Of a stretch of 37,726 bases of DNA, positions 4,136 to 37,726 are shown one piece after another; position 1 is the stretch's first letter; every line of letters starts with the position of its first letter. Made by a program: the position numbers and the translations under genes. Under the pieces are notes generated by a model. The model did no database searches. It saw only the letters and a list, made by a program, of their open reading frames with translations, and had not been told where the DNA came from. The stretch covers positions 1-37,726 of the IMG/VR virus record IMGVR_UViG_3300020159_001169. One strand, 5' to 3'. This DNA comes from a virus.

Positions 4136-4527
4136 TTCTTATCACCTAAAAACTCTTTAACTTTAGTATTAATTTGTTTACCAAGAGTTTTATTTACATT
4201 AATAATCTCATGTCTTAACAGAGACTTGGCAGGAGGGCCATATTCCAAACGAGCAGCTTTTGCGTCAGAGTCCCCAGCTACATCGTAGTAAAAAGATAAG
4301 TCTTTGGAATCCCAAGTAATACTAAAGTCTTTGGCAACAGACTCCCATTCTTTTTCTTTTTGAGGCAAAGATTTCTTAATTCGTTTTTCTTCTTCAATTA
4401 CCGCCCCCCCAATAATCATGGAAAGGTGTTCTTCTAAGTTTAGGAAAAGGTCAGCTAAATAGGTAATAGGAGCAGGACAACCTGTGACAATAGGGCTAGA
4501 GGATGCGTTCGTAGATTTGCCAGTCAT
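4132..4527 (-). CDS. Neck / head-tail joining protein, HK97 gp10-like candidate
   Basis: A 131-residue charged helical protein. The C-terminal part reads AARLEYGPPAKSLLRHEI, which resembles the 'E-Y-G-T-x-x-x-x-P-x-F-L-R' feature of HK97 gp10-like neck proteins. Such proteins complete the joint between head and tail. It follows the connector genes and precedes the tail completion candidate, which fits. Start at 4527 has AAGGAGCG upstream. The N-terminal 20 residues are Ser/Thr-rich and poorly structured. The family link is a weak motif match; the gene itself is well supported by ribosome site and coupling. Confidence 0.6.
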   Translation of the reverse strand: MTGKSTNASSSPIVTGCPAPITYLADLFLNLEEHLSMIIGGAVIEEEKRIKKSLPQKEKEWESVAKDFSITWDSKDLSFYYDVAGDSDAKAARLEYGPPAKSLLRHEIINVNKTLGKQINTKVKEFLGDKK

Positions 4528-7025: not shown

Positions 7026-7056
7026 TTTATGGCTCCTTTTTGTGTAGTTAAGAATA

Positions 7057-7080
7057 AAGTGGGGGGATTAACCCCCACTT
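7057..7080 (-). terminator. Hairpin after capsid gene, possible attenuating terminator
   Basis: Perfect 9-bp stem (AAGTGGGGG pairing with CCCCCACTT) with a 6-base loop, 17 bases beyond the major capsid stop. On the minus strand it is followed by a moderately T-rich TATTCTTAAC. A leaky terminator or 3' stabilising hairpin here would allow more capsid mRNA than mRNA for downstream genes. Confidence 0.6.
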
Positions 7081-7096
7081 ACATCTTAGAGATTAA

Positions 7097-8176: not shown

Positions 8177-8211
8177 AATTTATCTCCTAAATTTCTTGTT
8201 GAATATGGACC

Positions 8212-9015
8212 TTAAAAACGACCCTTGTTGGATCGTGAACTTAATAGCCTGTCTCTCATTTTAACATACTGGTCCATTGTCATGTTTCGGATATCATCCG
8301 AGTTCAACGTTTGGTATTCCTGTTGGTTATCCATTGGTCCAGACACTGGCGAAGTAACCGATACCCCTTTAAGTTGGCGTGGTTGCGTCGCTTGTTGGAC
8401 ACTTTGAAGTATAGCAGCACTGCGTTGGCGCAAGATATCTACTGAAGCGTCTACCTCTTCAATAGTGTTACCAGCAACAAGATCAATCAATTCTGGAATG
8501 ATGTTTTCTTGTTCCTCGTGAAGCTTGCGCTGACGATAGGTTTCTAATTCGCGCAATTCGCGCTCTTTATCAAGCAATGCTTGTTGCGATTTGCGGTCCT
8601 CTTCAATTGCTGCAAACCGAGTTTGCCATTCAGCGTCAATGTTTTGAATCTTGGCGTTGAACTCATCTTCGGTTTTGGCCAACAATTGCTTAGAGGTAAG
8701 TTCCTCAAATTCGCGTTGTTTGCGGATTTCTTCTTCCTTACGAGCAGTATCTTCAGCTTTTTTAATAGCTGATTCACGGTCTTGAGCAAGAACTTTAAGT
8801 TGTTCTTCCATTGCTTTTGTTCGTGCATCGGCTTCTTCAAGACGCTTGTACATCTTGTCTTTTTCCTGCTTACGGATGTTTTCAACATCTGTCTCAGAAA
8901 AGATTTTACCCGTTGGGGTACTTTGGTTATTTGGGGCTACTTGCTGAACCGCCTCATTAAATGCATCAACTGCAACTGCAGGGATGGTGATTTCATCTGT
9001 TTCTCGCTTTGCCAT
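8212..9015 (-). CDS. Capsid scaffolding protein
   Basis: A 267-residue protein dominated by a long charged coiled coil (about residues 45-175, rich in Lys, Glu, Arg and Gln, e.g. EEADARTKAMEEQLKVLAQD). A basic, Arg-containing C-terminus (YVKMRDRLLSSRSNKGRF) follows, as in many scaffolds where the C-terminal helix binds coat protein. It lies between portal and major capsid, the standard scaffold position. No protease triad is visible, so capsid maturation protease, if any, must be elsewhere. AGGAG precedes ATG at 9015. A structural protein fused to a protease is not supported. Confidence 0.78.
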   Translation of the reverse strand: MAKRETDEITIPAVAVDAFNEAVQQVAPNNQSTPTGKIFSETDVENIRKQEKDKMYKRLEEADARTKAMEEQLKVLAQDRESAIKKAEDTARKEEEIRKQREFEELTSKQLLAKTEDEFNAKIQNIDAEWQTRFAAIEEDRKSQQALLDKERELRELETYRQRKLHEEQENIIPELIDLVAGNTIEEVDASVDILRQRSAAILQSVQQATQPRQLKGVSVTSPVSGPMDNQQEYQTLNSDDIRNMTMDQYVKMRDRLLSSRSNKGRF

Positions 9016-9066
9016 AATTTTCTCCTATGTGTTGTTTAGCGAATATTTACTGATGTGGTTTACGGA

Positions 9067-10761
9067 TTATTTGTCTTCGTCAGGAACACGACGCTGTGCA
9101 AACCTTGCGCCATATGCCCGACTAGTCATTTTATTAATTAAATCTTCCTCAATTGGTGGAATACCACCAACACCTGGAAGCGGTCCACCCGTTTCCGAAT
9201 TTCCCGCACTAGATACATTAGCACCTCCAGCAGAAGTCGTTTGCATGCCGGATGTGTCAGGCAATAAGCCTGTAGCAAGCATCACTGCCTGACCAATCTG
9301 TGCACGTACCATATCAAGTGCACCCTGATCAATTGCGTCGTCCATAAGTTCATCAAAGATTTCAATCATCTTTTCATTCGGGAATTCTTCGCCCAATGAA
9401 CGAAGAGCACCTTTTTTGGACTCAATACCCAATGCCATTTTTGCTTGGGCTTCATTAAGTTTGATAAGTGCATCAACAGGAAGTGGTTCAGGCCAATGAA
9501 TTGTTGTCTTGTAAGTATTTGGGTCCATCGGGTCTAGTTGTGTTAATTGATCCGCTTCCGGCATTGCTGACTGCGATGGGTCGTACACCAAGAGTTCTGG
9601 CAAAAATACTGCTGCTGTTCTAATAATAATTTCATTAAGCTTTTCTAAACCATTAGTAAAGTGAACTTTCTTCATTTGATAACGGTTCATCAAAGGCTGA
9701 TACTGAATCGCCAAAGCAACACCAGAAGTGTTAGATACTGGTTGGAATTGTCCTAATGCTGTTTCTGGAACACCAGTAATCTCGTGCATTGCTCGCTTAA
9801 TCAATTGAATGTACTCAAGCGCTCCAGCCATTTCTCCACGAGATTCAAGGTTAAATACTTGCGCATCTTTTGGTAAACCAGCCCAAACTTTCTTCGGCCC
9901 TCGCTCAAGTTGGCTTGCTTTTGCACCAGTAATAATTGTTACAGGAGCAGCATGGTAGTTGATGATGTCTGAAACTTCAGTCATCTTTTCGTTCAGTTCA
10001 CGATTTAGTTGGATGACATCCCAAATGTCCGATTGGCCCCAAGGTGAAGAAGTAATGGTTACGTTTGGAATGTGGACAATAGGAACGGTTCCAATTGGGT
10101 TTGGATACGAATCAATTAGTTCGTCGTTTACATATTGCTGAACTAGTTCGTCAGTAAGGATTTCTGTAAAAGTGTAAACCTGACGAGTACCTTCTGGAGA
10201 TGTACCCCAAAAGCGATATTTAAGTTTAAAACGCAACAAACGTTCACGATCATGTGGATGGTATTCAGGAAAGCAATGCGCTGGGTTAAGAGGTAAAATG
10301 CGAACACGACCTGGACGAACAACACCAGCACCATCTTCGTATGGTTCATCATACGCAACTTTTACAAAGCAGTCTCCAGTAACACTGGCTAACTGACCCA
10401 TCTGCCAAAGCAAATAGTGTTTGTTGTTTTGGTTATCCCAAACCTCGTGAAGAAGTCGTGGAATGATTGCTTGGTTTTGCTCAGGAACTTTAAATTGAAT
10501 TCCTTTACCAAAACAAAAGTTGGTGATAAAGTCCGACATTGTTCGGACGTAATTCATTGTAATGTTGTTGTCGCCCATTTCGCGACGGTATGACCAATGG
10601 TGTCCTAGATACCAAGCCCACGCAGCAGAGTAGCGGTTAAGGCGTGGACCGTGAACTTCAAACTCTTCGTCCGCAAGTTCAACTAGTCCTAAAGGGCTGA
10701 TAGCAACTGTTAGATCGCTAGATGCAGCCCTGTAGGACGGTGACCAAAAATCAATAGGCAT
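9067..10761 (-). CDS. Portal protein
   Basis: A 564-residue portal, the dodecameric ring through which DNA enters and leaves. It begins with a helical region (RLNRYSAAWAWYLGHHWSYR) and contains MNYVRTMSDFITNFCFGKGI, and a central PVSNTSGVALAIQYQPL segment that matches the 'SG-x-A-L-x-x-x-xx-P-L' stem/clip signature of SPP1 gp6-like portals. EITGVPETALGQF just before it is also typical of portals. The C-terminal part has a Pro/Gly-rich run (GPLPGVGGIPPIEED). It is the first gene of the structural module and is followed by scaffold. GAGG lies upstream of ATG at 10761. Length is normal for the family. Confidence 0.92.
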   Translation of the reverse strand: MPIDFWSPSYRAASSDLTVAISPLGLVELADEEFEVHGPRLNRYSAAWAWYLGHHWSYRREMGDNNITMNYVRTMSDFITNFCFGKGIQFKVPEQNQAIIPRLLHEVWDNQNNKHYLLWQMGQLASVTGDCFVKVAYDEPYEDGAGVVRPGRVRILPLNPAHCFPEYHPHDRERLLRFKLKYRFWGTSPEGTRQVYTFTEILTDELVQQYVNDELIDSYPNPIGTVPIVHIPNVTITSSPWGQSDIWDVIQLNRELNEKMTEVSDIINYHAAPVTIITGAKASQLERGPKKVWAGLPKDAQVFNLESRGEMAGALEYIQLIKRAMHEITGVPETALGQFQPVSNTSGVALAIQYQPLMNRYQMKKVHFTNGLEKLNEIIIRTAAVFLPELLVYDPSQSAMPEADQLTQLDPMDPNTYKTTIHWPEPLPVDALIKLNEAQAKMALGIESKKGALRSLGEEFPNEKMIEIFDELMDDAIDQGALDMVRAQIGQAVMLATGLLPDTSGMQTTSAGGANVSSAGNSETGGPLPGVGGIPPIEEDLINKMTSRAYGARFAQRRVPDEDK

Positions 10762-16803: not shown

Positions 16804-18360
16804 TTAATTAAAGAACGGGTTTTCCCCAACTTGGATTGTAGGCATTGTGTCATGTAGGGTTGTAGAGCACGCCAAAGCAAGCGAATCCGGGTAGTCGTCA
16901 AAGGCTCCTTTTTCGTCTGGGGCTTCTGCCAACATATACGGACCTTTATAAACTTTTTCCAAATCGTTCATTTGTTGGTTAAATCGTTTCCATGATTTGG
17001 TGCGTCTGGCTTTTGAGTGTCCAGGAATAATAAGTTGTTCTCTTTGAATTAATTCTGTTAAATGCACCCATCGTTCATTTTGGCTTTTTGAATCAGACGA
17101 GGTAGCCGTTACTTCCATATGTGGCAAAAGGATTTGAAGACGCTCAGCAACCGCACCACCAACGCCTTGGGCGTCTACGGCAACTTTACAGACTTCATAA
17201 TTGCGCAAAAAATCAACAATTTGAAAGTATTGACTTTCCCATTCCTGATCGTTAATTTCTAACCAATTTAGAATTCTGTGTTCGTAAAAACCAAATGGAT
17301 CTGGATGGTCCCAATCCACCCACACAACAGTTACTACCGTAGAGTCATTGGATCTAGCAACGTCAATTCCGGCAACTACAGGAGTTCTCCACCACTGCTT
17401 GACCAACGGCATAGACGGTTCGTACAACCGTTCCATACGCTCTTCGGTAACAAACATACCTTTCTCAAGCATCCAACGGTTGCAATAAGACATTTGGAAT
17501 TCGTCCGAATCTTCGCCAATCCTTAACTTTTCTTTGGAGATGAATTTTAGGTAGTTCTGGTTGTACTTGGAAGCAACTCGCCAGTCATACTCAAAATGAC
17601 AATCTCGCATGCTTTTTTTACTGCTGGTCATTCGTCGTTTGTTGTACTGAATCATCTTGTAGAAATAGGATTTAGTGCGCGAAGCTGTACCAGTTAACAT
17701 GATGCTTCCGTTGTTAAACGCCAACATTGGTTTTATGGATTTTGCAATTACGTATTCGTCGGCTTCTTGAGCTTCGTCAATCAATACAAAGTGATATGTT
17801 TTAGATTCAATTTTGGCTTTGGGGTTACAGGTTTGCATACGGCATAACGATCCAGCATTTTTTAAAGCCAGAATCTTTCCTTTACCTCGTGTGCCACCAG
17901 CCTTGGTACTGTCGTCAATTTCTGGATCTAACAAAAATGTCAAAGCATGGTCTGATGTCAAACGATTAACTATGCGACTAAACACAGTATCGGCTTGGTC
18001 TTCAACGGGAGCAAACACACCGCACCAAAAGCCCTTACTAAATTTGGACAACCATGTCGGATATACGGGAGCTAACTTTGGAAGAATGACCATCATGGAT
18101 GCAAGCACATTAGAAATGACTTCTGATTTACCGCTTTGACGAGTTGCAACTAATGTTATTTCTTCGCCGTCACCCAGCACGATGGATTCAATTACCCGAT
18201 AAGCAATGGGAATTTGATAAGGAAAAAACTCAATGTCACAGAATTGTTCTGTAAACAAAACCAGTTTTGTGACGAGTTGCTCTACAAACTCAGCCGAGGT
18301 TTCGTCTAATTCTTCAACTAAATCCTCTGGTAATTGTTCGTCAGTTAGTATTTCGCTCAT
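16804..18360 (-). CDS. terL: Terminase large subunit
   Basis: A 518-residue DNA packaging motor. The N-terminal ATPase has Walker A ATRQSGKS (72-79), Walker B FVLIDEAQ (191-198) and a TGTASR coupling motif (223-228). The C-terminal RNase H-like nuclease has the acidic set GIDVARSND (D333), VAVDAQGVGG (D396) and FDDYPDSLALA (D492). The full set of motifs and length are typical. No strong ribosome site precedes ATG at 18360. Together with the portal 6 kb downstream it supports a headful-type or cos system; which one cannot be read here. This is the strongest single marker of the phage. Confidence 0.96.
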   Translation of the reverse strand: MSEILTDEQLPEDLVEELDETSAEFVEQLVTKLVLFTEQFCDIEFFPYQIPIAYRVIESIVLGDGEEITLVATRQSGKSEVISNVLASMMVILPKLAPVYPTWLSKFSKGFWCGVFAPVEDQADTVFSRIVNRLTSDHALTFLLDPEIDDSTKAGGTRGKGKILALKNAGSLCRMQTCNPKAKIESKTYHFVLIDEAQEADEYVIAKSIKPMLAFNNGSIMLTGTASRTKSYFYKMIQYNKRRMTSSKKSMRDCHFEYDWRVASKYNQNYLKFISKEKLRIGEDSDEFQMSYCNRWMLEKGMFVTEERMERLYEPSMPLVKQWWRTPVVAGIDVARSNDSTVVTVVWVDWDHPDPFGFYEHRILNWLEINDQEWESQYFQIVDFLRNYEVCKVAVDAQGVGGAVAERLQILLPHMEVTATSSDSKSQNERWVHLTELIQREQLIIPGHSKARRTKSWKRFNQQMNDLEKVYKGPYMLAEAPDEKGAFDDYPDSLALACSTTLHDTMPTIQVGENPFFN

Positions 18361-19765: not shown

Positions 19766-20848
19766 CTACAAGGCTAGTATTTGAGTCATTACCTCATGCC
19801 AATCGGCGCCAATTTGGGTCATTGTAAAGTTTTCTTTTAATATCTCATAGTTAACGTCGGCTTCGTCTTTGCGAAGTTGCGGGTTGATTAATTCGCTTAA
19901 ATGATATTGCCATTCTTCAGCGCTACGAGCCACCCTACCGACCCCAGCATCTGCTAGATACTGGTACTCAGGAGAATATGAAGATACAAACGGGACGCCA
20001 GCAGCAGCATATTCAAGTCCTTTAATATAAGACTTGGCGTGGTTAAATGGCAAATCATTAAGAGGAACAATGCCAATATCCATCTTAGTAAACAACTTAG
20101 GATACTCTTTAATAGGACATAACGGAGTGTCTGTGCAGCGTTGTTTGTCTATGTTTAATTGTTCTCTAGCTAATGGCGAATTTCTAGTGTACCCAGAGTG
20201 GTGAAACAACAAATTGTTCTTTTTTATAAATGGCCCGATCCACGATGACAAAGTTTCTAAATCCCTGGATCTCCAAGGAGTTGCTCCAACCCAACCAATA
20301 GTTGGTCTACGTACGGCTCTATCAGTGCGTCGCGTCCATCTATCTAAATCAATACCGTTTCTAACTAGATAGACATGTTTGTGTTTAGTTGAATAATAGT
20401 CATACAAAAAAGGAGTTGATGTAATAAGGGCGTCTGCTTGGTTAATAATAGAATTATAATGTTCTCTGTTATTATCTTCATTTCTCTTGGGGTCTGTAGA
20501 CGCAAATGCTTGATTGCTTTCATCTAGCCCATCAAAAAAATCATCAATATCAACTACTATTTTTTGTCCTAAAGCTTTTGCAATGGGCATTGCTGACGCA
20601 ATCTCTTTTCTCATCAACAATTTAAAAACTAAAATGTCCCAACCGTGAACGGCTTTGTCTTTTTGTAAAATCATCCCAAAACCGTGTTCTTTGTTAAACT
20701 GAGGCAATCCTAAGCCAACTCGCCAATTGTATTTTTCAAGTTCACGCATGGGTAGCAAACAGCGATACCAAGCGCACCCGTTAGGTTGTAATGGTTGTGT
20801 TCCAACTGCCCAATCGTATGTTAAAAACCCTATTGTGTTCCGCTTCAT
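19766..20848 (-). CDS. Glycosyltransferase, GT-B (group 1-like)
   Basis: A 360-residue enzyme. It starts with a Rossmann-like half containing KIVVDIDDFFDGLD (97-109), then a GT-B C-terminal half with RPTIGWVGATPWRSRDL (181-197), DIGIVPLNDLPFNHAKS (257-273) and IKGLEYAAAGVPFVSS (275-290). The last motif, E-[YF]-x-A-x-G-x-P-V, is the nucleotide-sugar binding signature of group 1 glycosyltransferases. It would transfer a sugar to a cell-surface or virion acceptor. It precedes (in transcription) the KTSC gene and follows the small membrane protein and secreted repeat protein. AAGGG precedes ATG at 20848. Donor and acceptor are unknown. Confidence 0.85.
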   Translation of the reverse strand: MKRNTIGFLTYDWAVGTQPLQPNGCAWYRCLLPMRELEKYNWRVGLGLPQFNKEHGFGMILQKDKAVHGWDILVFKLLMRKEIASAMPIAKALGQKIVVDIDDFFDGLDESNQAFASTDPKRNEDNNREHYNSIINQADALITSTPFLYDYYSTKHKHVYLVRNGIDLDRWTRRTDRAVRRPTIGWVGATPWRSRDLETLSSWIGPFIKKNNLLFHHSGYTRNSPLAREQLNIDKQRCTDTPLCPIKEYPKLFTKMDIGIVPLNDLPFNHAKSYIKGLEYAAAGVPFVSSYSPEYQYLADAGVGRVARSAEEWQYHLSELINPQLRKDEADVNYEILKENFTMTQIGADWHEVMTQILAL

Positions 20849-21132: not shown

Positions 21133-23226
21133 TTACCCAACTCGCACGCGAACTGGGACACTTAATAATACAGCACCCACGCCAACTAGGACACGGCGAT
21201 CACTCACTGGCACTCTGGAACCCATGGGGACATACACATCAAATACACCTTCAAAAACATTTAATTCTTTTTCAAATGATTTTCTAACTTCTTTGGGCGC
21301 TTCCTGCACGGCTTCCGAAATTGCTAACCCATCCTCTGGCGACACCTCAGACGCAACCACGGCATCAAACACTTCCGTTGCTTGTTCCCCGTCAATGCTT
21401 TCCAACACCTTTTCACTTGTTGCGAGTTCTGTTGCTTGCTCTTCACTAACCCCACCTTCTTGCTCAATAATCAAAGTAACTACTTCGGAGACTTGTTCGT
21501 TGGATATAACTTCAGATTCAAGGACATTAACAATCGCTTCAAACTTTTCTGTATTAAGTTCGGTTTCTAACACAGCAGTAAATGTTTCAATCAAAACCTC
21601 GTCGGTTACTACTTCGTCAAAGATGGCGTCAATGACAGTTCCAAATTCTTCGGTATTAAGTTCGCCCTTAAGGACGTCTTGAGCCAATTCAATTGTTTCT
21701 TCGTCCGATAGGTCTCCGTCAAACACAGCATCAAAAACTGCTGCCAATTCTTCTCCAGACAAGTCTGCTTCTAAAAGGTCATCCACAACTGCGTTCATTT
21801 GCTCAACAGAAGCCTCTTTGCTAAACACCGCTTCCATAACCGATACAAGTTCTTCTTCGCTCAAATCCTCAGATAGCAAGGATGTAATAACCGCAGTTAC
21901 TTGTTCTGTGTCTGAGATATCCTCAAATACCGTGTCAAGTACTGCTTCAAATTGTTCTTCAGAGATATCGGCATCAAGGAATGAGCCGAGAACTTCTGTA
22001 ATGCCTTCTGTGTCTTGTAGGTCGTCAAAGATTGCGTCAATTGCTTCGCTAAAATCATCGTCAGATATTTCGGTGAAATCAACGTTGTCGTCAAAAATAA
22101 ATGGTAACGTAGTAGGTGATGAATCCTCTACTTCTACTAGCGTTGTTTCTGTTGTATATTCCGGCAGCTCTAATATTTCTTTTGGCTGTTCTGTTTCGTC
22201 AGGAAGAATCACGTCTACGAGATCAGGAACGACTGTCTCAGGAATGGTTGTCTCAACAGGCTCAACGATATCTTCAGGAAGATCGGGAAGATAGGTTGTA
22301 GATGTTTCTGGTTCTGTGGTATCGGGCAAATCAATTGTGGTATCGGGTACGGTTATGGTGGTTACGGGTAGAGTCTCAATGGTGGAAATAGTTGTAGTAG
22401 TTTGAGGAGGCGTATATGGTGCAGAAGTTGTGGTGGTTACTTGAATTGGGATGGTCGTCGTTGTGCTTGTTGTTGTCGTTTGCATGGTTGTTGTTGACTG
22501 AACTGGCTCGCTCGTTGTGGTCGTTTCTTGAGGAAGGGTTGTTGTAGATGTTGAAGATGTCGTTGAAGTTGATGTTGTTGTTTGGGGCAACGTGCTTGTG
22601 GTTGTTGTGGCAACTTCCGTGGTACTTGTGGATGACGAGCTAGATGATGTGGTTGTCGTTGAGGATGTGGTTGTTGAAGTGGTTGTTGAAGGTGAAGTTG
22701 TAGTAGTTGTAGTAGTTGAAGAGGTAGCAGTGGTAGTTGTCGTTTCTGGCGCCGCTGTCCACAATGAAAGATTGCTGATGGTCAAATGACCTGGCTGGCA
22801 GCAAGAGTCAGTGGAATACTGACGGAACGTAAAGATATCACCCTCTTGAACTGGAATTGACTTTGAACCTGTCGCATTGTTTGCGTTAGTTAGCTGGACG
22901 TACGCACCGTTGACTGCGTACTGCGGAGGGTCGTAGCTAGCACCATCGTTGGTTTGATATGCCCAAGTAAAATCCACTGTGCTTACACCCTGAGGAATTG
23001 TGGTCTCAATTTTAACCCAATGAGCGGCACCGCTACAACCACCGTAATCAGGTCCGTGAAGAGTAATCACATTACCAACTACCTCAACAGAACCATTGCA
23101 TGCTTGCGATTGGCTATATGACCAGTTTCCAAGCACGTCTGCTTTTGCTGGAACACTCTGTGCAAAAAAAGGAAGTAACCAAATAAACAATGGAAGCAGT
23201 TGCAGTGGGCGGAATTTAAATCTCAC
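21133..23226 (-). CDS. Secreted Thr-rich surface protein with acidic helical repeats
   Basis: A 697-residue protein that starts with GTG (23226). Residues 1-29 form a signal peptide (RFKFRPLQLLPLFIWLLPFF, AKA|D). About 30-157 is a beta-rich, Cys-containing domain (QACNGSVEVVGNVITLHGPD; CCQPGHLTISNLSLW). About 160-300 is a Thr/Ser mucin-like stalk. After a Pro/Glu/Thr linker, about 375-650 holds roughly ten acidic repeats of about 25 residues with the pattern 'DLSEEE-[LF]-x-x-V-[LFM]-[DE]-A-V-F'. The end (RRVLVGVGAVLLSV) could be a membrane anchor. Such a layout is that of a wall-anchored adhesin or S-layer-like protein of a Gram-positive host. Its neighbours are sugar genes, so glycosylation of the stalk is an attractive but inferred idea. 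It is unusual in a phage late operon. Confidence 0.75.
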   Translation of the reverse strand: MRFKFRPLQLLPLFIWLLPFFAQSVPAKADVLGNWSYSQSQACNGSVEVVGNVITLHGPDYGGCSGAAHWVKIETTIPQGVSTVDFTWAYQTNDGASYDPPQYAVNGAYVQLTNANNATGSKSIPVQEGDIFTFRQYSTDSCCQPGHLTISNLSLWTAAPETTTTTATSSTTTTTTTSPSTTTSTTTSSTTTTSSSSSSTSTTEVATTTTSTLPQTTTSTSTTSSTSTTTLPQETTTTSEPVQSTTTMQTTTTSTTTTIPIQVTTTTSAPYTPPQTTTTISTIETLPVTTITVPDTTIDLPDTTEPETSTTYLPDLPEDIVEPVETTIPETVVPDLVDVILPDETEQPKEILELPEYTTETTLVEVEDSSPTTLPFIFDDNVDFTEISDDDFSEAIDAIFDDLQDTEGITEVLGSFLDADISEEQFEAVLDTVFEDISDTEQVTAVITSLLSEDLSEEELVSVMEAVFSKEASVEQMNAVVDDLLEADLSGEELAAVFDAVFDGDLSDEETIELAQDVLKGELNTEEFGTVIDAIFDEVVTDEVLIETFTAVLETELNTEKFEAIVNVLESEVISNEQVSEVVTLIIEQEGGVSEEQATELATSEKVLESIDGEQATEVFDAVVASEVSPEDGLAISEAVQEAPKEVRKSFEKELNVFEGVFDVYVPMGSRVPVSDRRVLVGVGAVLLSVPVRVRVG
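21276..22101 (-). repeat. Tandem acidic repeats of about 25 residues in the secreted protein
   Basis: The coding stretch encodes about ten degenerate copies of a unit resembling 'ADLSGEELAAVFDAVFDG'. Each has an Asp/Glu start, hydrophobic spacing that suggests a short helical hairpin, and Val/Phe anchors. Copies differ at nucleotide level, so the repeats are old rather than recent. Confidence 0.65.
22380..22745 (-). repeat. Thr/Ser-codon low-complexity stalk region
   Basis: Plus-strand runs of GTTGTT/GTGGTA triplets translate on the minus strand to Thr/Ser tracts such as TTTTSTTTT. They are the mucin-like stalk of the secreted protein and are prone to slippage and expansion. The plus-strand reading frames across it are shadows. 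Confidence 0.75.
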
Positions 23227-25484: not shown

Positions 25485-26093
25485 CTAGATGTACTTATAC
25501 CAATTAACAACTGCATACCTTGTTCCTTCAATAATTGGCTTTACGCTGTGCATATACGGGAATGCTGACGAAAAGACTAGACAATCGCCCTGCTTTGGTT
25601 TGTATTCAATATTAAAATGTTTAAAACAAAGCTCGCCTCCAGAATAGTCATCATTAAAGTAAACAATGGAAGAAACAGTTCTGGGGTATGTTGGGCAATC
25701 ATCGTTATGGTCATTGAAGTAATCGCCTGATTCATACTTTAAAAATATTGCATCATGGTTTTTTATCGCCTCATGAGCGCTGTATTTACTACAAAATTTT
25801 GCAACATTTTCGTCCATAAAACTGTGTACTTGATCTGAAAGAATTCTTAATGGATCTTCAGTATGGCAACCCGGCAAATCACTTCCAGAAAAGATTTTAC
25901 ATTTTCTATGATCTAAATTTACTGTTGAATGGTAACCATCTTCTTTTTTTGTATAAACTGTTCCATAAGCCAAGAGTGGTTCAGAATATGTTTTTAACGT
26001 CAGAAGCCATTCATTTGCTATACCCTTATCGTAAGAATATACAACTATTCCAGGGGCAAGTTCATTCTCTCCTACCATTTGCCTAGTGGACAT
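25485..26093 (-). CDS. 2OG-Fe(II) oxygenase, prolyl 4-hydroxylase-like (1 of 3)
   Basis: A 202-residue enzyme of the prolyl-4-hydroxylase-like family. The Fe(II) ligands are H129 and D131 (FNDHNDDCP) and H182 (PYMHSVKP), and R192 (GTRYAVVNW) should bind 2-oxoglutarate. The double-stranded beta-helix is supported by SIVYFNDDYSGGELCFKHF and KPKQGDCLVFSSAFPYMHSV. It could hydroxylate prolyl or lysyl residues in a virion protein, or a small molecule. GAGGA lies before ATG at 26093. It overlaps the start of a zinc-ribbon gene by 22 bases. Confidence 0.88.
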   Translation of the reverse strand: MSTRQMVGENELAPGIVVYSYDKGIANEWLLTLKTYSEPLLAYGTVYTKKEDGYHSTVNLDHRKCKIFSGSDLPGCHTEDPLRILSDQVHSFMDENVAKFCSKYSAHEAIKNHDAIFLKYESGDYFNDHNDDCPTYPRTVSSIVYFNDDYSGGELCFKHFNIEYKPKQGDCLVFSSAFPYMHSVKPIIEGTRYAVVNWYKYI

Positions 26094-27440: not shown

Positions 27441-27458
27441 GGTTAAGTATATCAAACA
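27441..27458 (-). promoter_or_regulatory. Repeated promoter-like motif (copy 1)
   Basis: Minus strand TGTTTGATATACTTAACC, 30 bases before the ATG at 27411. It contains TGATATACT, an extended -10-like site, and matches 17 of 18 bases of the motif at 29440-29457. No good -35 hexamer was found. It may be a late promoter. Confidence 0.5.
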
Positions 27459-27520
27459 GGATTGCTGGTAGCGATATCAGCCACTTAGTTAAATAGCGAC
27501 CCACGCATGTTGCCGTTGTA

Positions 27521-27730
27521 TTAGGCAGGGGTGGCAAAAATGTCGTTGTTGTCTTTCATGGCTTGGATGGTTGTTTCTGCCCATTGCTCAGCTTCTTCTC
27601 TTGTCCAAGGCGCACCGCCATTTTGGGAGTTGGGTTGGATTAAGGTATTGCGAGAAGTCCTTGCCCCAACATTTTCCGTCTGCGTAATAGTGACTTTGTT
27701 GTTGTTATCTATTTCATATGTGTATTCCAT
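27521..27730 (-). CDS. Small unknown protein (tail-fibre accessory)
   Basis: A 69-residue protein starting MEYTYEIDNNNKVTITQTEN. The second part (APWTREEAEQWAETTIQAMK) is a helix with Trp/Glu. AAGGAG lies before ATG at 27730. Short proteins with 'W-T-x-E-E-A' occur next to fibre genes in other phages, but no family is assigned. It immediately follows the DUF1566 protein. Confidence 0.6.
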   Translation of the reverse strand: MEYTYEIDNNNKVTITQTENVGARTSRNTLIQPNSQNGGAPWTREEAEQWAETTIQAMKDNNDIFATPA

Positions 27731-27739
27731 GATGTCTCC

Positions 27740-29029
27740 TTAAACTACGTATTCTATGATGACGCCGCCGTTTGATCCCATCCATGCGTCAGTGGTATAA
27801 CCATTGGCCGCAAAAGCTGCGCCTTTCCCAATCACAAACGAGTATGTTGTTGATGGAACAACAGTGACTTGGAAAACTTCTATTACGCCATCTTGACCAG
27901 GGTTTCCGTATGCGTATGCTCTTGATGTGTGGCTAAATTTATCAGAAGTATTATTGCCGTCCGTGTATGTTAAACCAGTATCCGCAGATGCATATCCAGG
28001 GGCGCCGCCACAGCCAGGATACCTTGCGAACGAGGCTGCTGTACCAGAACCTGAACCAGAACTAAATTGGGAGTTGTACCAATATCCTTGCCCCGAAAAA
28101 GAGGGTCCTGTAATGGAAACGTTTACCCCCTTTTTCCCACCAAGTGCCGTGTATACGGTTGCACCAACCGTGAACGTTGTTGATTCCGCAGTGTCGGCAG
28201 GGAAAGTATTTGAAGAAGAAGACCCAACCGTTATTGCCTCAACGTTGCCAGCCGCTCCACCAGCACCGATGAGTGTCAGTTTTATCTGTGTGACACCAGC
28301 AGGACAAGTCCATGAAGTGTCGGTATAAGTTGTGTACTTTGTGACATAAACTTTAGGTGCCGCTGCCAATGTGCTATTAACCCATGCTGTACCATTCCAC
28401 GTCAGTGCCTGACCTGAAACTGCAACAGGGTTGTCTGCGGCAGTGAATGACCGCACTGGACGCACGTAGATCGCGACGGGGGGCGGGCTGCCGAACATCT
28501 TTAGGTCAGCGTACTGAGCGCCACTGATAAAGTCCTGATACCAAGCAGTGGTGGCGTCGTACTCAGAAGAACTCCAATAGTTGCTCTGAGGAGAACTAAG
28601 AACCGCTCTCTGTGTGTACAACTCGTTCAGTTCATTCTTGGATGGCAAAAACCAATCAGAGAAACCGCCATTTGTGTAATCAGAAGCATACACAGCGGCT
28701 GAAGTTGCAGCCACGTTTCCTGCCTGCGCAACGATGTCTATCGTGTTTTGAGCACCTGTTCCGATTGCGGTACCATCAGCACCAGAAACTGCTGTTGTTT
28801 GGTTTGAATTAGCATATGTTGCCCAAGTTCTAGCTACTTGAGCACTAGATGGAGCTACTTCAAAATATTGACCAGTAGAGTTGCCAGCCGTAGAAGGTGT
28901 GATGAATATTTTTCCACCACCAGGACCCGTATCGCCAATTGCATAAGCAGCTGTTGTGATTGTTACATCCGAAATACCATTTAAAGTAGAGCCTGCGCTC
29001 ACATATCCGAGTTCACGCCTGGTAGACAT
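27740..29029 (-). CDS. DUF1566/Lcl-type lectin-like tail protein with Gly-rich C-terminus
   Basis: A 429-residue adhesin candidate. Residues about 30-196 form a DUF1566 (FGE-fold, C-type-lectin-like) domain: GPGGGKIFITPS, GGFSDWFLPSKNELNELYTQ (121-140), then NYWSSSEYDATTAWYQDF (150-167) and IYVRPVRSF (187-195). The C-terminal 200 residues are glycine-rich with short repeats (GGCGGAP-like, GNPGQDGVIEVF), like flexible tips of phage fibres. DUF1566 domains are known targets of diversity-generating retroelements, and the segment between YWSSSE and YVRPVR has codons dominated by NNC/NNT. It may be the receptor-binding protein. No ribosome site is obvious before ATG at 29029. Confidence 0.75.
   Translation of the reverse strand: MSTRRELGYVSAGSTLNGISDVTITTAAYAIGDTGPGGGKIFITPSTAGNSTGQYFEVAPSSAQVARTWATYANSNQTTAVSGADGTAIGTGAQNTIDIVAQAGNVAATSAAVYASDYTNGGFSDWFLPSKNELNELYTQRAVLSSPQSNYWSSSEYDATTAWYQDFISGAQYADLKMFGSPPPVAIYVRPVRSFTAADNPVAVSGQALTWNGTAWVNSTLAAAPKVYVTKYTTYTDTSWTCPAGVTQIKLTLIGAGGAAGNVEAITVGSSSSNTFPADTAESTTFTVGATVYTALGGKKGVNVSITGPSFSGQGYWYNSQFSSGSGSGTAASFARYPGCGGAPGYASADTGLTYTDGNNTSDKFSHTSRAYAYGNPGQDGVIEVFQVTVVPSTTYSFVIGKGAAFAANGYTTDAWMGSNGGVIIEYVV
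28466..28576 (-). other. Candidate variable region of DUF1566 domain
   Basis: This stretch encodes the residues from WSSSEYDATTAW to the start of YVRPVR (about residues 152-188). It follows the pattern 'W-S-S-S-E-x-x-A-x-x-A-W-x-Q-x-F-x-x-G-x-Q' where x residues vary in related proteins. It is locally more GC-rich and has C or T at most third positions, unlike surrounding coding. That is compatible with adenine-directed mutagenesis of AAC/AAT template codons. No reverse transcriptase or template copy is seen in the window. Confidence 0.45.
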
Positions 29030-29031
29030 AG

Positions 29032-29403
29032 TTACACCGTAATTCTATTAACAAACCCATGAATACAAATCACATTTGCTGTTGCAGCAAAAGCCTTCAC
29101 GACTTTTGGTGTTGCGTTGCCTTGTAACAAAAAGCCAGGAACGACAGTTACGATACCTGCCTCTGGCAGCACTGTGAGTTCAATGTTGCCATCGGGGGCA
29201 GTTGCTTCGCCCCACTCAATAGTAAGTTTTACTGCAGAGGCTGAAGTATTGACTGCATACAACCAAACTTCGTCAATCGTGGTTGCAGTAGATGACGCTG
29301 TATGGATTGCTGTACCTGCAGTTGCAGTAGCGGCAACTTTGATTGCCAAACCTGTTCCTGTTGTACCTGCTGGTTGTAAACATAATTTACTAAATATTGC
29401 CAT
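29032..29403 (-). CDS. Small virion protein, beta-rich (paralogue 2 of 3)
   Basis: A 123-residue beta-rich protein (MAIFSKLCLQPAG...) with ATTIDEVWLYAVNTSASAV and LLQGNATPKVVKAFAATANV, ending FVNRITV. It aligns with the product starting at 33777 (shared TT-[IF]-DEVW-[LI]-YA, P-G-[FL]-x-L-[KQ]-GNATP, [GF]-[YV]-NRIT). Probably a trimeric or ring-forming virion component. AAGGAG precedes ATG at 29403, and the 18-base promoter-like motif lies 37 bases upstream. Confidence 0.7.
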   Translation of the reverse strand: MAIFSKLCLQPAGTTGTGLAIKVAATATAGTAIHTASSTATTIDEVWLYAVNTSASAVKLTIEWGEATAPDGNIELTVLPEAGIVTVVPGFLLQGNATPKVVKAFAATANVICIHGFVNRITV

Positions 29404-29439
29404 AAATGTCTCCTTAAGCTACTACTACCCGAAATGGAT

Positions 29440-29457
29440 GGTTAATTATATCAAACA
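29440..29457 (-). promoter_or_regulatory. Repeated promoter-like motif (copy 2)
   Basis: Minus strand TGTTTGATATAATTAACC, with TGATATAAT, a perfect extended -10 box. Located 37 bases before the ATG at 29403. The only other copy found by eye is 27441-27458. No -35 box is clear. Confidence 0.5.
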
Positions 29458-29478
29458 AAGTATAACAGTGTTACCCTT

Positions 29479-30099
29479 CTACTTCTCAAACTCTATCCAC
29501 GAAGTAAGGATGTATTTTGCGCTATCAAGTGGTGGATTGCCTCTATGCATATGTGTGTAGGCGGCTGGTGCTAGCACCAAGCGACCTTGTGAAGCCTCAA
29601 CACGAGCGGATTGATAAAGAAACTCTGTCTCACCACCGGAGGTAATATCGTTGAGGTAAAGAATAATAAAAGCCATTCTTCGCCCTGTTTCTATAGTTGC
29701 CTGCTCGCAATGCCATACGTGGTAGCCACCTTGGGGGAGTGTTTTTTGTATTTTAATTGTTGACATAACCAATGGCGATACAGCAGTAGACATATTTGGG
29801 TGTTTTTCAACATACATTGGTAGACAAGTTTGCCAAAATTTATTTAAAAATTCGTTAATGAATTCGTCACTCATTGACTGATCCACCAGCAATTCTCGCA
29901 TTTCCAATTCATGCCCGATACTTACAGAAAAATCTTGCTTGTCTGAAGTGTTCCGTTGAAACGCGATCTTAGAACGATATTCGTAAAAATCAATAAATTT
30001 CTGACAAAGTTCTGGTGAAAAAAAGTTATCCCACACCCCTATATGATCACCTTGGTAATACTTTTCTTCCTTTGAAGTTGGGCGAGATAATATAGACAT
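29479..30099 (-). CDS. 2OG-Fe(II) oxygenase, PKHD-like (2 of 3)
   Basis: Start taken at ATG 30099 (MSILSRPTSKEE), 4 bases after the upstream stop; an open frame to 30132 lies inside that gene. About 206 residues. Fe(II) ligands are likely in YHVWHCEQ (H130, E132: H-x-E instead of H-x-D) and the distal His in YTHMHRGNPP (H183 or H185), with GRRMAFIILYLNDITSGGET as core strands. Phage PKHD-like enzymes with YHxWHxE are known. Substrate may be a virion protein or nucleotide. It follows a large unknown gene and precedes the beta-rich virion protein. Confidence 0.78.
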   Translation of the reverse strand: MSILSRPTSKEEKYYQGDHIGVWDNFFSPELCQKFIDFYEYRSKIAFQRNTSDKQDFSVSIGHELEMRELLVDQSMSDEFINEFLNKFWQTCLPMYVEKHPNMSTAVSPLVMSTIKIQKTLPQGGYHVWHCEQATIETGRRMAFIILYLNDITSGGETEFLYQSARVEASQGRLVLAPAAYTHMHRGNPPLDSAKYILTSWIEFEK

Positions 30100-30103
30100 G
30101 TCG

Positions 30104-30904
30104 TTAACCTGCAATGTTCTTTGCAAGTTCATTTAAAATCAAATTACGCATTGGATTTTTATCAAACATATCGTAGCGAGATGCAAGCGTTTTTAGTTTT
30201 GGCCTTCTGTTCAAAATCATGTCGTTAGACAAATCAAACAGTTTTTGACTGCACTCAAAACGAGTAAACACTATTTTTTTATCTGTGGCAAACTCAACAT
30301 AGGCTAAAGGCTCTTCTGCTTTAATTTCAAAGCGAGTGACATCGTCCCAAAGATTGAATTCAAAATTTAATGGTCTAAACCATCTTCCAATATCAAATGT
30401 TCCAGGTATCACAGCACCATACTTAAGGTGAGGCGCATTACCAAACCATGGGGAAGTAAGGCGCATCATTAAAGGCGTGGTGCTAAAAAATAACATTGGA
30501 AAATTGTACACAAAGAGAATTTGATTGTTGATTGATGGTAAGTGAGCCATAGTTGATTCAACCGTTGAGTATCTTGCCAAATGTGGCGATTCTCTCATTT
30601 GGTCTTGAGTTACTCCTGTGATGACTTTATTCTCGTCAAACTCAATATTCGCGTCAGAATCGGTAGGGTTTCTAATTATATAAACAGACTCCATTGTTTC
30701 TCGCACGGCTGGACATTGAAAAATATTAGGAGTGTATTCTTTGTAGTTTGCTTTATTAGAGATTAACGAACTCCACAAATTTTCCGGCTCTTCATATGCC
30801 CAAGGATTTATAAAACCAGTATACAAATCGGGGTTTTTAAGATTGCGCCATGGTGCCCAAAAAACCTCGTGTTCCTTCTTCTCGTTTATCTGTTTGAATT
30901 TCAT
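30104..30904 (-). CDS. Unknown phage protein, 266 aa
   Basis: A 266-residue protein with no recognised family. It begins MKFKQINEKKEHEVFWAPWR and contains QILFVYNFPMLFFSTTPLMM, a hydrophobic core, and several Trp/Phe/Arg-rich segments (FDIGRWFRPLNFEFNLWDDV). Cyanophages often have proteins of this size among oxygenase and fibre genes, which is the basis for calling it real. No membrane helices or catalytic motif are obvious. It lies between two 2OG oxygenases, and may be part of the same modification or adhesion step. Confidence 0.6.
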   Translation of the reverse strand: MKFKQINEKKEHEVFWAPWRNLKNPDLYTGFINPWAYEEPENLWSSLISNKANYKEYTPNIFQCPAVRETMESVYIIRNPTDSDANIEFDENKVITGVTQDQMRESPHLARYSTVESTMAHLPSINNQILFVYNFPMLFFSTTPLMMRLTSPWFGNAPHLKYGAVIPGTFDIGRWFRPLNFEFNLWDDVTRFEIKAEEPLAYVEFATDKKIVFTRFECSQKLFDLSNDMILNRRPKLKTLASRYDMFDKNPMRNLILNELAKNIAG

Positions 30905-30934
30905 TTTAATTTTCCTTTGTTTAGTTGTTGTATT

Positions 30935-31537
30935 TTATTTAAATTTTTTCCCTGAGTACCACACTACCAAGGAATGTCTATTTCCACTAATTACTTTATT
31001 GACCCTATGTGTCATCCAAGCAGGAAATAGAACAGCTGCTCCTAAGTCTGGTTTAATTATGTTACAAGCAGTCCCATCTGGTTTGCGGTCAATCTCAAGT
31101 GCGCCACCCTCGTAGTCCGTCTTATCAGAAAGAAGCAACGACATTGAAAGTTTCCTAACCATCGGGAAAGTGGTGTGTTCTCCTAAGAGTACATCCATGT
31201 GCCAATCATGAAAGTTATCTTCTGTGTAATGAGCGTACTGAGGAGCGGGCATAAACTCTAAATCGTATTGAAACGAGCGTTCATTAACGGAGTCGCCCAG
31301 TTCTATTAAATTATCAAATAACCACCTAACATCAGCATCTGAATCATCAGGGTCTATGAAACGAACGTTGGATTGTCTTACAGAATTATCCACTCCCCCA
31401 TTACCAATTTGTGCTTTTTCCAACTGTTTTGACGACCCTATTTTAATGATTCTATCGCATTCTTCTTTTGTAAAAACTGAGTGAACCACCACGAACGGGT
31501 GCATTGGGGCTGTCTGTGGAGAATCGTACCTTAACAT
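30935..31537 (-). CDS. 2OG-Fe(II) oxygenase, PKHD-type hydroxylase (3 of 3)
   Basis: A 200-residue prolyl hydroxylase-like enzyme. Motifs: DWHMDV (H113, D115), THRVNK (H177) and SGNRHSL (R187) with the core RKLSMSLLLSDKTDYEGGAL. It is diverged from the other two oxygenases, so the three are probably specialised. No ribosome site precedes ATG at 31537, and the upstream stop lies 6 bases before it, which suggests coupling. Substrate unknown. Confidence 0.88.
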   Translation of the reverse strand: MLRYDSPQTAPMHPFVVVHSVFTKEECDRIIKIGSSKQLEKAQIGNGGVDNSVRQSNVRFIDPDDSDADVRWLFDNLIELGDSVNERSFQYDLEFMPAPQYAHYTEDNFHDWHMDVLLGEHTTFPMVRKLSMSLLLSDKTDYEGGALEIDRKPDGTACNIIKPDLGAAVLFPAWMTHRVNKVISGNRHSLVVWYSGKKFK

Positions 31538-31543
31538 AAGTTT

Positions 31544-31933
31544 TTATTTTGAAATTTTGTAAAAAGAAGCCGCTTCTGGGTGTAGTTCTAATAACAGTTT
31601 TTCAAGTTCTTTGGTAGGTAACGATTTTTCGTTTGATACTTTTTTCTCTAAATACTGCCTATATGTCACGTGAGCAAATGAATGAAAAAGTTCCAGACTG
31701 TGGGTTGCTCGGTTTATCAAATCAACATCGGGTTTTGCCTGTTTTGGTAAAGACTCAACTGTAAAAAGGTTTATTGATGAAAAAAACTCAATTACAGAAT
31801 CTTGAAGACGACGCAAAAGTGTTGGGTCCTCATCTACAACATGGATAAGTACGTCTTGATCACTTAAATGTACAGCGATGTCTCTGTACAAAATTATAGG
31901 GCCGTAACTGCTCGGTGTAATTTTTGTTTCCAT
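31544..31933 (-). CDS. Unknown protein upstream of oxygenase
   Basis: A 129-residue protein starting METKITPSSYGPIILYRDIA. Helical with a charged C-terminus; NRATHSLELFHSFAHVTYRQ and VSNEKSLPTKELEKLLLELH are visible. No family recognised. AGGA precedes ATG at 31933. A 15-base direct repeat lies just upstream (31947-31980). Coupled with the oxygenase gene. Confidence 0.6.
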   Translation of the reverse strand: METKITPSSYGPIILYRDIAVHLSDQDVLIHVVDEDPTLLRRLQDSVIEFFSSINLFTVESLPKQAKPDVDLINRATHSLELFHSFAHVTYRQYLEKKVSNEKSLPTKELEKLLLELHPEAASFYKISK

Positions 31934-31946
31934 GTTGTAATCCTAG

Positions 31947-31980
31947 TCTATAAATTGTTGTAAAATCTATAAATTGTTGT
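31947..31980. repeat. 15-bp direct repeat at a gene boundary
   Basis: TCTATAAATTGTTGT occurs at 31947-31961 and again at 31966-31980, separated by AAAA. The downstream copy (31966-31980) contains the stop of the gene at 31967 (Asn-Asn-Asn-Leu then TAG on the minus strand). It is a short tandem duplication of the gene end. Confidence 0.7.
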
Positions 31981-32272
31981 TGAATGTTGCCTGTTCTAGT
32001 AACCCTGTAAATTTGCCGTACGCATCCATTAAGTTGTGAGTTCCGTCAACAGGGAATTCTTCTGTAGGTTCAAGAACAAAGGTGTTATGCATAGCAGTTA
32101 ACAACAATTTTGCGTGGGCTTTAGTTAAGACGCCAACTTCGTCAAGTTGTTCCTGTGCCATGTCTGCTGGTGCTAAAGTCTCAGCGACTGTAATGTAGTA
32201 GAGGGCAGACCATACGAGTTTTGCTAGGTCTGTATCATTTGTGTTGTATGCAATTGTGCGATTATGCGACAT
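31967..32272 (-). CDS. Unknown protein, 101 aa
   Basis: Start at ATG 32272 (MSHNRTIAYNTNDTDLAKLV); a longer frame from 32311 reaches back into the zinc-ribbon gene. Helical, with ADMAQEQLDEVGVLTKAHAK and a Met/Asn-rich end that closes in a run of Asn. It overlaps the upstream zinc-ribbon gene by 11 bases. No family recognised. Confidence 0.55.
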   Translation of the reverse strand: MSHNRTIAYNTNDTDLAKLVWSALYYITVAETLAPADMAQEQLDEVGVLTKAHAKLLLTAMHNTFVLEPTEEFPVDGTHNLMDAYGKFTGLLEQATFNNNL

Positions 32273-32426
32273 AGGTATTCCACTTTCCAATTGGGCAACT
32301 AGACTTAGCAAGTTGAGTTTTTAACAACACGAAACAACCGCATTCTCGGCAAGTTGCAGTATACTTAAAAAGCCGACTGCATGAATAGCAAATGTCAAGT
32401 CTTTTTTTAATTTGCTCTTTGTTCAT
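32262..32426 (-). CDS. Small zinc-ribbon protein B
   Basis: A 54-residue protein starting MNKEQIKKRLDICYSCSRLF. The Cys pattern CYSC, CRECGC, CPIGKW matches zinc-ribbon protein A (CLSC, CKQCGC, CPLGKW) with the same spacing and conserved LKT-x-L. The start lies 3 bases after the stop at 32430 and the end overlaps the next ATG. The paralogues frame the oxygenase/fibre block (26 kb and 32 kb). Confidence 0.72.
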   Translation of the reverse strand: MNKEQIKKRLDICYSCSRLFKYTATCRECGCFVLLKTQLAKSSCPIGKWNTYVA

Positions 32427-32429
32427 GGC

Positions 32430-33405
32430 TTAGTTCTCAAACAATTCAAATGACTCAACAGCCGAACTTGGTCCAACTGTTCCTGGCGCAAAGATTAATC
32501 CAAATTTAGTACCTGGAGTACCCACTAAAGCCGTATTCACTGCGGTTGCTGTATTTTGAGCGTTGGTTTGTGCTGTAATTGTGGCGCCATTTGCTGTTGT
32601 TGCAACTTGTACGAAGTTAACATATTGAGAGGCTGTGTTCGTGGCTAACGCCGTAGTTGAGACAGTGGATACTGTTCCTGCTACTTTTTTAATTATCTTC
32701 AAGTCTGCTCGGTTATACGCTGTTGCTGTACCGCCGTAGGTTACTGAGTTGTAGTTATAAGGAGCATCAACGTTGTAGTAGTAGTATGGAGTAAAGGCGC
32801 CGTTGTATCGCGGTGCTTGATGCCAGTTCTGCCAACTCCAACTGTAGCAAGTTCCTCCTGCTTCGCGCTCTGGACAACCATAAAAGAAGTCGTAATACCC
32901 GCCACCTTGTGCTTGATACGGACCGCCGCCTTGAACGTTATAGGAGCAGTTTCCTGTATTGTTATTTGCACTACCACCTGATGGACAGTTGTATGGTGCC
33001 GCAGTGCTGGATCTTGTCCACAACTGCTGCCCACCAGTTATTATCGTCCGTCACCCAAAAAGATACACCAGCACCCGACGCAGGAGTTGTTGGGAGGGTT
33101 GCCTTGACGGTGGCTTCGGTAGAAACTACATCTACGGCAAGAACTGGATAAGATGCTGCAGCAGTTGCAGTTGTTGCTTGGTTAGCAGTTACTGCCCAAG
33201 TTCCAGATACCGCGGTCCAATCAACTCCGCCTCCAGCAACTGCTCCACGAGTAAACGTATCAGCAAAAGCCGCTAACTTAGCAATTCCTTTTCCAAAGAT
33301 GTAAGCAAAAACATTGTCTGTTTTATTGCCCCTGCCTGAACGAGGAGATAGAGGACCAGCGCCTACTGCTTGACCAACCGCTCCTCGTTTAAGAAATTCA
33401 GACAT
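32430..33405 (-). pseudogene. Split beta-sandwich tail protein, apparent +1 frameshift
   Basis: Two overlapping frames appear to be one gene. Frame 1 (33405 to 32971, MSEFLKRGAVGQAVGAGPLS) ends GAGVSFWVTDDNNWWAAVV-DK then stops. Frame 2 (down to 32430) continues ...TRSSTAAPYNCPSGG... and has only a TTG candidate start (33023) without a ribosome site. Joined near 33023 they give a concanavalin-like beta-sandwich: N-terminal half (GTWAVTANQATTATAAASYP), a Tyr/Asn/Gly/Cys-rich insertion (PYYYYNVDAPYNYN) and the last strands (GTKFGLIFAPGTVGPSSAVE). This would be a fibre or receptor-binding protein. Either a real indel (loss of function or a sequencing/assembly error) or a frameshift is possible; no slippery site was seen. 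Confidence 0.6.
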
Positions 33406-33408
33406 AAA

Positions 33409-33777
33409 TTATGCCGTGATTCGGTTTACATATCCTGACAAAGAAATAACGTTTGTGGTTCCTGCTGCTGCTTTAACAGTAAGCGGAGTTGCATTGCCTT
33501 TAAGGATCAAACCAGGGATTACAAGGTACAAACCACCTTTGGTTTTTACTGTGTATTCAATAATGTCGTCAGGGTCTGTTACGCCACCAAAACCAATTCG
33601 CAAAGCAACATCTGATGTGTGGTTGTTTTGTGCGTAAATCCAAACCTCATCAAAAGTTGTTGATGCTGAAGAGCCAGTATGAATCAAAGTTGGCGAAGAA
33701 CCAATCGCTGTTGCAACTACCTTGAGTGCCCGACCATCAGTACTTGACGAAAGTATCTGTTTACTATATGTTGCCAT
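33409..33777 (-). CDS. Small virion protein, beta-rich (paralogue 3 of 3)
   Basis: A 122-residue protein starting MATYSKQILSSSTDGRALKV. TTFDEVWIYAQNNHTSDVAL, a DPDDIIEYTV acidic segment and GLILKGNATPLTVKAAAGTT match the products starting at 29403 and, less clearly, 27411. Ends GYVNRITA. CAGGAG precedes ATG at 33777. Probably part of the tail tip; beside the split beta-sandwich gene. Confidence 0.7.
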   Translation of the reverse strand: MATYSKQILSSSTDGRALKVVATAIGSSPTLIHTGSSASTTFDEVWIYAQNNHTSDVALRIGFGGVTDPDDIIEYTVKTKGGLYLVIPGLILKGNATPLTVKAAAGTTNVISLSGYVNRITA

Positions 33778-37459: not shown

Positions 37460-37726
37460 ATGGCATCAAAAAAGAAACAAACAGAAAAAAAAGTTGCAAA
37501 ACCTCGTAAAAAAACAGCTACTAAAGTAGTAGCACCACCAGTAGTAGACCTTCCAAATGACGATTTTTCAACAAATAGCGACAAATTTGCATTTCGTCAT
37601 TCTGTCCCCGATTTCATTGAACCAGAACAGCCATTGGAAGAAGTAGTTGAAGAAATAGTTGAAGAAATAGTTGAAGAAATAGTTGAAGAAATAGTTGAAG
37701 AAATAGTTGAAGAAATAGTTGAAGAA
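37460..37726 (+). CDS. Lys-rich then VEEI-repeat protein (partial, off right edge)
   Basis: The only plus-strand gene. It starts MASKKKQTEKKVAKPRKKTA (basic, GAGG box upstream), then a middle segment (DFSTNSDKFAFRHSVPDFIE) and an acidic repeat of four residues (V-E-E-I) that continues to the edge. The repeat unit is 12 bases, 6.75 copies from 37646. A basic-then-acidic low-complexity protein could be a nucleic acid or histone-like binding factor, but function is unknown and the gene is truncated by the window edge. Confidence 0.65.
   Translation, partial: MASKKKQTEKKVAKPRKKTATKVVAPPVVDLPNDDFSTNSDKFAFRHSVPDFIEPEQPLEEVVEEIVEEIVEEIVEEIVEEIVEEIVEE
37646..37726 (+). repeat. 12-bp tandem repeat (GTTGAAGAAATA), 6.75 copies, to the window edge
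   Basis: Exact 12-base units, in frame, encode V-E-E-I. The array runs into the window end, so its true length cannot be seen. Perfect units suggest recent expansion or contraction, and the edge could be an assembly break. Confidence 0.85.

Follow-up and report, generated by a model that had tools for sequence, protein, structure and literature searches.

The stretch of freshwater phage DNA considered here (the window, the linear IMG/VR record IMGVR_UViG_3300020159_001169 of 37,726 bases) encodes a lectin-like adhesin with a segment that resembles the variable repeat (VR) of a diversity-generating retroelement (DGR). This raises the questions of whether the segment is indeed of DGR type and, if so, which reverse transcriptase (RT) and which template repeat (TR) have written it. 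DGRs are usually found by way of an RT with its template and target nearby. The answer that is preferred here, with a probability of roughly 0.45, is that a DGR of the host cell writes the window VR in trans.

The record is a myophage fragment, in which profile and PHROG annotation places genes for the tail sheath (1887-3431), portal (9067-10761) and terminase (16804-18360), all on the minus strand. The terminase is closest to that of the Streptomyces phage BRock group (~46% identity) and, since BRock-group genomes measure 112-116 kb, the record probably represents about one-third of the full phage genome. The host is probably actinobacterial; the terminase and the family of the matching DGRs, not spacers or cultures, are the basis for this assignment. 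A 13.8-kb contig (L008/L001), which is 99.98% identical to the window over their overlap, extends the record by ~2.8 kb. The end of the record (37625-37726) falls within a 12-base tandem repeat, (GAAGAAATAGTT)n, past which L001 continues, and this repeat is probably the reason why the assembly stopped. Other features of the record include a direct repeat present five times at 102-base spacing (21614-22060) within an ORF of 697 aa without a confident family (21133-23226), as well as genes resembling those for a glycosyltransferase (19766-20848) and a 2OG-Fe(II) oxygenase (25485-26093).

The adhesin and its variable repeat

The adhesin-like protein of 429 aa (27740-29029, minus strand), as defined by its ORF, translation, Pfam and PHROG matches, is encoded in a segment of ~6 kb (27456-33407). 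Synteny with the closely related contigs L213, L223 and L227 marks this segment as accessory, window positions 27456 and 33407-33409 being only ~1.1 kb apart in all three. Searches of phage collections with the adhesin gene returned no match. A protein search revealed the whole adhesin in none of 50 terminase relatives, so the gene is regarded as accessory; location in a block that relatives lack is as expected of a host-range gene. The protein matches PHROG 4245 (E 2.8e-24) and the tail-related PHROG 863, and is composed of a DUF1566 domain in its first half followed by a long Gly/Ser-rich C-terminal part. The domain (Lcl_C/DUF1566, PF07603, aa 107-192, 28454-28711, minus strand) scores barely above the Pfam gathering cut-off, with E 9.6e-9. 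An AlphaFold2 model of aa 20-196 (pLDDT 87.7, pTM 0.87) has as its top PDB match the C-terminal domain of Legionella Lcl (8q4e, E 1.3e-5, TM 0.50/0.66), a bacterial adhesin domain that is also the Pfam namesake. The domain is therefore predicted by the model to adopt the Lcl fold, that is, the C-type-lectin-like, diversity-tolerant type of domain expected of a DGR target. By analogy with the known behaviour of the fold, the variable codons may form its binding face, and the adhesin would presumably serve in receptor binding.

The motif YWSSSE...AW-x-Q-x-F...YVRPVR, on which the initial annotation had based its suggestion of a retroelement-diversified region, spans residues 151-193 (28451-28579, minus strand), slightly more than the 28466-28576 originally proposed. 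The VR so delimited by its edges, codon composition and match to a TR consists of a constant 5' edge of 18 nt, TATTGGAGTTCTTCTGAG (28579-28562, minus strand), 32 variable codons, YDATTAWYQDFISGAQYADLKMFGSPPPVAIY (28466-28561, minus strand), and a constant 3' edge of 15 nt, GTGCGTCCAGTGCGG (28465-28451, minus strand); both edges are identical in DNA to the TR of the actinobacterial locus L228 described below. At codons 151-193 of 429 the VR is internal to the gene, whereas location of a DGR VR at the 3' end of its gene is usual, although not universal.

The claim that the interior codons are mostly of NNC/NNT type and GC-richer than the surrounding gene was borne out. Among the 32 codons following YWSSSE, 17 end in C, where 7.0 would be expected for these amino acids by the codon usage of the gene (p < 5e-5), and GC content is 0.59-0.61 across 28390-28554 against about 0.41-0.55 in the remainder of the gene. 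Relative to phage-wide usage, the VR is the most C-ending of 9,329 overlapping 32-codon windows of the phage (z 5.1), the best value outside the adhesin gene being z 4.4, which two stretches of the phage besides the VR reach. Such an excess is not general to the DUF1566 fold, since in a related protein with three DUF1566 domains (L002), taken as a control, it was absent from two domains (p 0.26 and 0.31) and present in the third (p 7e-4). In L002 a single 1203-aa protein (7031-10639) contains all three domains, and the excess is confined to the last. The enrichment of shared 3'-edge codons among phages was only modest and is not used as support. An inverted repeat of five bases (TGCGG/CCGCA, ~28435-28455) was noticed by eye across the 3' edge of the window VR and was not seen in the L007 VR or the cellular VRs.

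Templates in actinobacterial chromosomes

A template-shaped pattern, scanned against 84,980 prokaryote genomes, gave three matches, whereas a long pattern for the 5' part had matched no genome. In the actinobacterial MAG PowLak16_MAG33 (L228/G127), a DUF1566 target, Avd, TR and RT occupy one 5-kb contig and are adjoined by apparently ordinary chromosomal genes. The RT matches RVT_1 (2.1e-20), the Avd matches the NCBIfam model DivGenRetAVD (2.7e-12), and the template reads TATTGGAGTTCTTCTGAG AACGACGACAACAAC GCGTGG AACCAGAATTTCAACAACGGCAATCAGAACAACAACAACAAG ... TACGTGCGTCCAGTGCGG. The VR of this locus differs from its TR at 27 of 41 A and at none of 58 other bases; L228 is a complete DGR, with an RT, an A-rich TR, a VR that differs at A only, and an Avd. 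The GC content of the contig (0.50) is slightly low for its bin, of which five other contigs have 0.52-0.54, so mis-binning is possible, although the family contains two more such sets, which argue against it.

Skeleton matches occur in 6 of 222 genomes of this family. Six VRs in the five other genomes carry 0-1 non-A mismatches out of 58 in five cases and ten in one. Relatives of the RT at 68-73% identity were found in G433, G667 and G398, and in the former two a TR and VR of the same skeleton lie beside the RT, the TR skeleton being conserved. One actinobacterial family therefore holds three DUF1566 DGRs with VR, TR and RT (L228, G433 and G667), the TRs of which differ from one another at third codon positions. 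Among 397 evenly sampled genomes of the order, the L228-type system was present in G127 only. The cellular target genes terminate in their VR and have RT and TR adjacent, unlike the window gene with its internal VR; the VR skeleton, edges, DUF1566 fold and A-to-N pattern are shared. The DUF1566 domain of a further actinobacterial locus (L242) has 61% amino acid identity to that of the window.

Phage VRs were compared with the L228 TR over an ungapped stretch of 27 codons that runs from YW through K and contains 33 template A. In the window VR, 16 of the 33 A are changed, while changes at other bases number 0 of 21 at codon positions 1-2 and 8 of 27 at position 3, seven of these eight ending in A/T, as codons elsewhere in the phage tend to do. 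Against all three TRs, which belong to other organisms, the VR has no non-A change at positions 1-2 and 8-10 among 26-27 third positions. An exact template for it was not found. The phage contig L007 departs from the L228 TR at 13 of 33 A and at none of 48 other bases over the same codons, and at 18 of 41 A and 1 of 58 non-A (the last base) over the whole VR. The corresponding counts are 14-15 of 33 A and 3 of 48 others for L004/L005, and 22 of 33 A with 0 of 21 (positions 1-2) and 7 of 27 (position 3) for L006. Where the DUF1566 domain has another origin (L002, L009), mismatches number 2-4 of 21 at positions 1-2 and 8-17 of 27 at position 3, one L002 domain equalling the window in its third-position count. 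Because the protein family constrains positions 1-2 in part, position 3 provides the stricter test, by which L007 fits perfectly and the window is intermediate. As the cellular TRs themselves vary at third positions, the differences of the window could mean either another template or drift.

Upstream of its VR, the L007 gene is ~45% identical to the target gene of PowLak16_MAG33 and 46-49% to other actinobacterial targets, compared with 56-65% to the genes of the window and L004/L005. The VR of L007 thus fits the TR while the gene around it is of other ancestry, which indicates that the VR has had a history different from that of the gene. The L007 contig has one gene in common with the window (65% aa) and, being only 12.5 kb long, its lack of an RT tells little.

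Search for an RT and a template among phages

The absence of RT and template from the window, as originally stated, was confirmed in three ways. A profile search detected no RVT_1 in the record or in L008/L001, and tblastn with the actinobacterial DGR RT found nothing in the window and was positive in four controls. A template scan of the window, L008, G004, G005 and G011, in which A was matched to any base, returned the VR itself only; apart from the VR, no 60-nt match had fewer than 12 unexplained mismatches, which was counted as none. Neither RT nor TR is thus present across 27 kb downstream and 11.5 kb upstream of the VR (window plus L008), and because both are missing within this fragment the gene, although a DGR-type target in codon structure and fold, is not classified as a complete DGR. 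No RT was found in the 50 terminase relatives either, some of which are contigs of 84-99 kb, but this is weak evidence because these relatives also lack the adhesin gene. The sole near-identical contig found (L001/L008) has a VR identical to that of the window.

When a degenerate VR/TR skeleton was scanned against viral contigs, 69 stretches matched, among them many clear VR and TR sets. Of 50 records from this pattern set, 21 contain RVT_1, which shows that the RT test works. By the same test RVT_1 was absent from the larger phage contigs with a VR of YWSS(S/T)E type (134, 130, 102, 82 and 69 kb, and 118, 89, 161 and 180 kb), records that may be incomplete. A scan with the VR 3' edge recovered only known VRs and chance matches, no TR of the window-type skeleton with phage-type edges was found among the 2.9 million viral contigs, and the nearest viral RTs are at most 51% identical to the actinobacterial RT.

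Evidence for ongoing change was found in two strains of another RT-less phage, G004 and G005, which are 98.5% identical over 55 kb. Their adhesin genes differ at 5 of 93 VR positions compared with 4 of 1,389 nt downstream (p 9e-5), and all five VR differences are at template-A positions. Neither RT nor TR was found in the contigs of 134, 102 and 69 kb. The two phages have recombined upstream of about -80 nt, so the VR differences may also have been imported by recombination. The VR of G011 equals that of G004, and the G004 terminase is too distant from named phages for host assignment.

Proposed writing in trans and its alternatives

The window segment is very probably of DGR type by descent; on codon composition and the match to DGR TRs elsewhere, the original assignment to this type of VR is well supported. 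The converse, a normal DUF1566 domain with a loop that is GC-rich by chance or selection, could appeal to the fold, which is common without DGRs, to the marginal Pfam score and to the two other phage stretches at z 4.4. It is nevertheless highly improbable, as the outlier coincides exactly with the DGR VR of the fold, both edges match the TR in DNA and two of the three L002 domains show no C-ending excess. The initial annotation had further implied that the phage genome encodes RT and template at another site. Such an ordinary phage DGR, with both in the missing part, would suit a linear fragment with relatives of ~112 kb, and targets remote from the RT within a single phage are known (PMC8143477), but it appears unlikely: the sequence examined on both sides of the VR, the terminase relatives and the large VR phages are devoid of RT, the viral contigs scanned are devoid of the TR, their closest RTs are distant, and the template and RT sets that were found lie in actinobacterial chromosomes.

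The known templates and RTs of this VR/TR family all belong to chromosomal DGRs of one actinobacterial family. In the reading considered most likely here, writing in trans, the phage would retain the target domain only, with RT, template RNA and Avd supplied by the infected actinobacterial cell. During infection the host RT would copy the host template RNA with errors at A, and the mutated cDNA would replace the homologous stretch of the phage gene via the matching edges (18 nt at the 5' and 15 nt at the 3' side, identical). The transfer would be by retrohoming in trans rather than by recombination, and may still occur in the window phage. Against this stand the lack of an exact template, the identical VR in the second copy, the internal VR, the possible mis-binning of L228 and the third positions, which are off the TR at 8 of 27, mostly toward A/T, and are equally compatible with slow drift in a VR captured long ago and with a template not yet sampled. 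Capture is a plausible, if doubtful, alternative, in which the DUF1566 domain including its VR was acquired by recombination from a DGR target of cellular or phage origin and is no longer rewritten, its third positions drifting to phage usage. It would account for the A/T-ending mismatches, for the confinement of all L006 non-A mismatches to third positions, for the accessory block, for the similarity to L242 and for the identical VRs of the window and L001. It is also in keeping with L046 and L047, where, by comparison with L045/L048, one phage virion protein gene occurs with and without a DUF1566 domain, apparently by clean insertion into an otherwise conserved gene. However, it leaves the A-site-only differences of G004/G005 and the perfect fit of L007 unexplained unless recombination repeatedly imports VRs, and the window VR is incompletely ameliorated. 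With the closest machinery detected in chromosomes of actinobacteria and none in the phage, the phage may have taken the patch, or diversification itself, from its host.

Extended beyond the window, writing in trans would mean, as a tentative generalization at somewhat less than even odds, that large freshwater phages carry DGR target domains with neither RT nor template of their own, and that the infected cell's DGR diversifies these domains. Phage host range could then depend on a mutation system owned by the host, whose hypermutation machinery would retune the adhesin of its own parasite. The L007/L228 and G004/G005 pairs make writing in trans directly testable.

In Bordetella phage BPP-1, A-directed mutagenesis acts on mtd, a lectin-fold receptor-binding protein of a different target family, and, unlike in the window, the complete cassette is in the phage. 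For DUF1566 itself the precedent invoked at the outset is correct, since the 'Bacuni' phages of Bacteroides uniformis diversify two targets, one remote from the RT (PMC8143477). As in the window, the target is a phage DUF1566/Fib_succ_major protein with a variable segment of ~35 codons, but RT, Avd and TR are in the phage genome (PMC8143477), whereas none was found for the window. Searches of the open-access literature found no description of a phage target that depends on a DGR of its host or of another cell. The main global DGR survey states that its method would miss remote targets (PMC8144416), and a class of hypervariable adhesins would have been overlooked if there are phages that possess the target alone.

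Several large phage contigs without RT, of up to 180 kb (L066, L079, L086/L097, L091, L095, L104 and L108), contain VRs of the TATTGGAGTTCT..GAG...YVRAVR type, which resemble the template of a DGR in a Bacteroidetes MAG (L229) and are possibly a parallel case. In L083 (plus strand, near 4393), a VR has an in-frame TAG opposite template AAG, as if a nonsense codon had arisen from A-directed mutagenesis.
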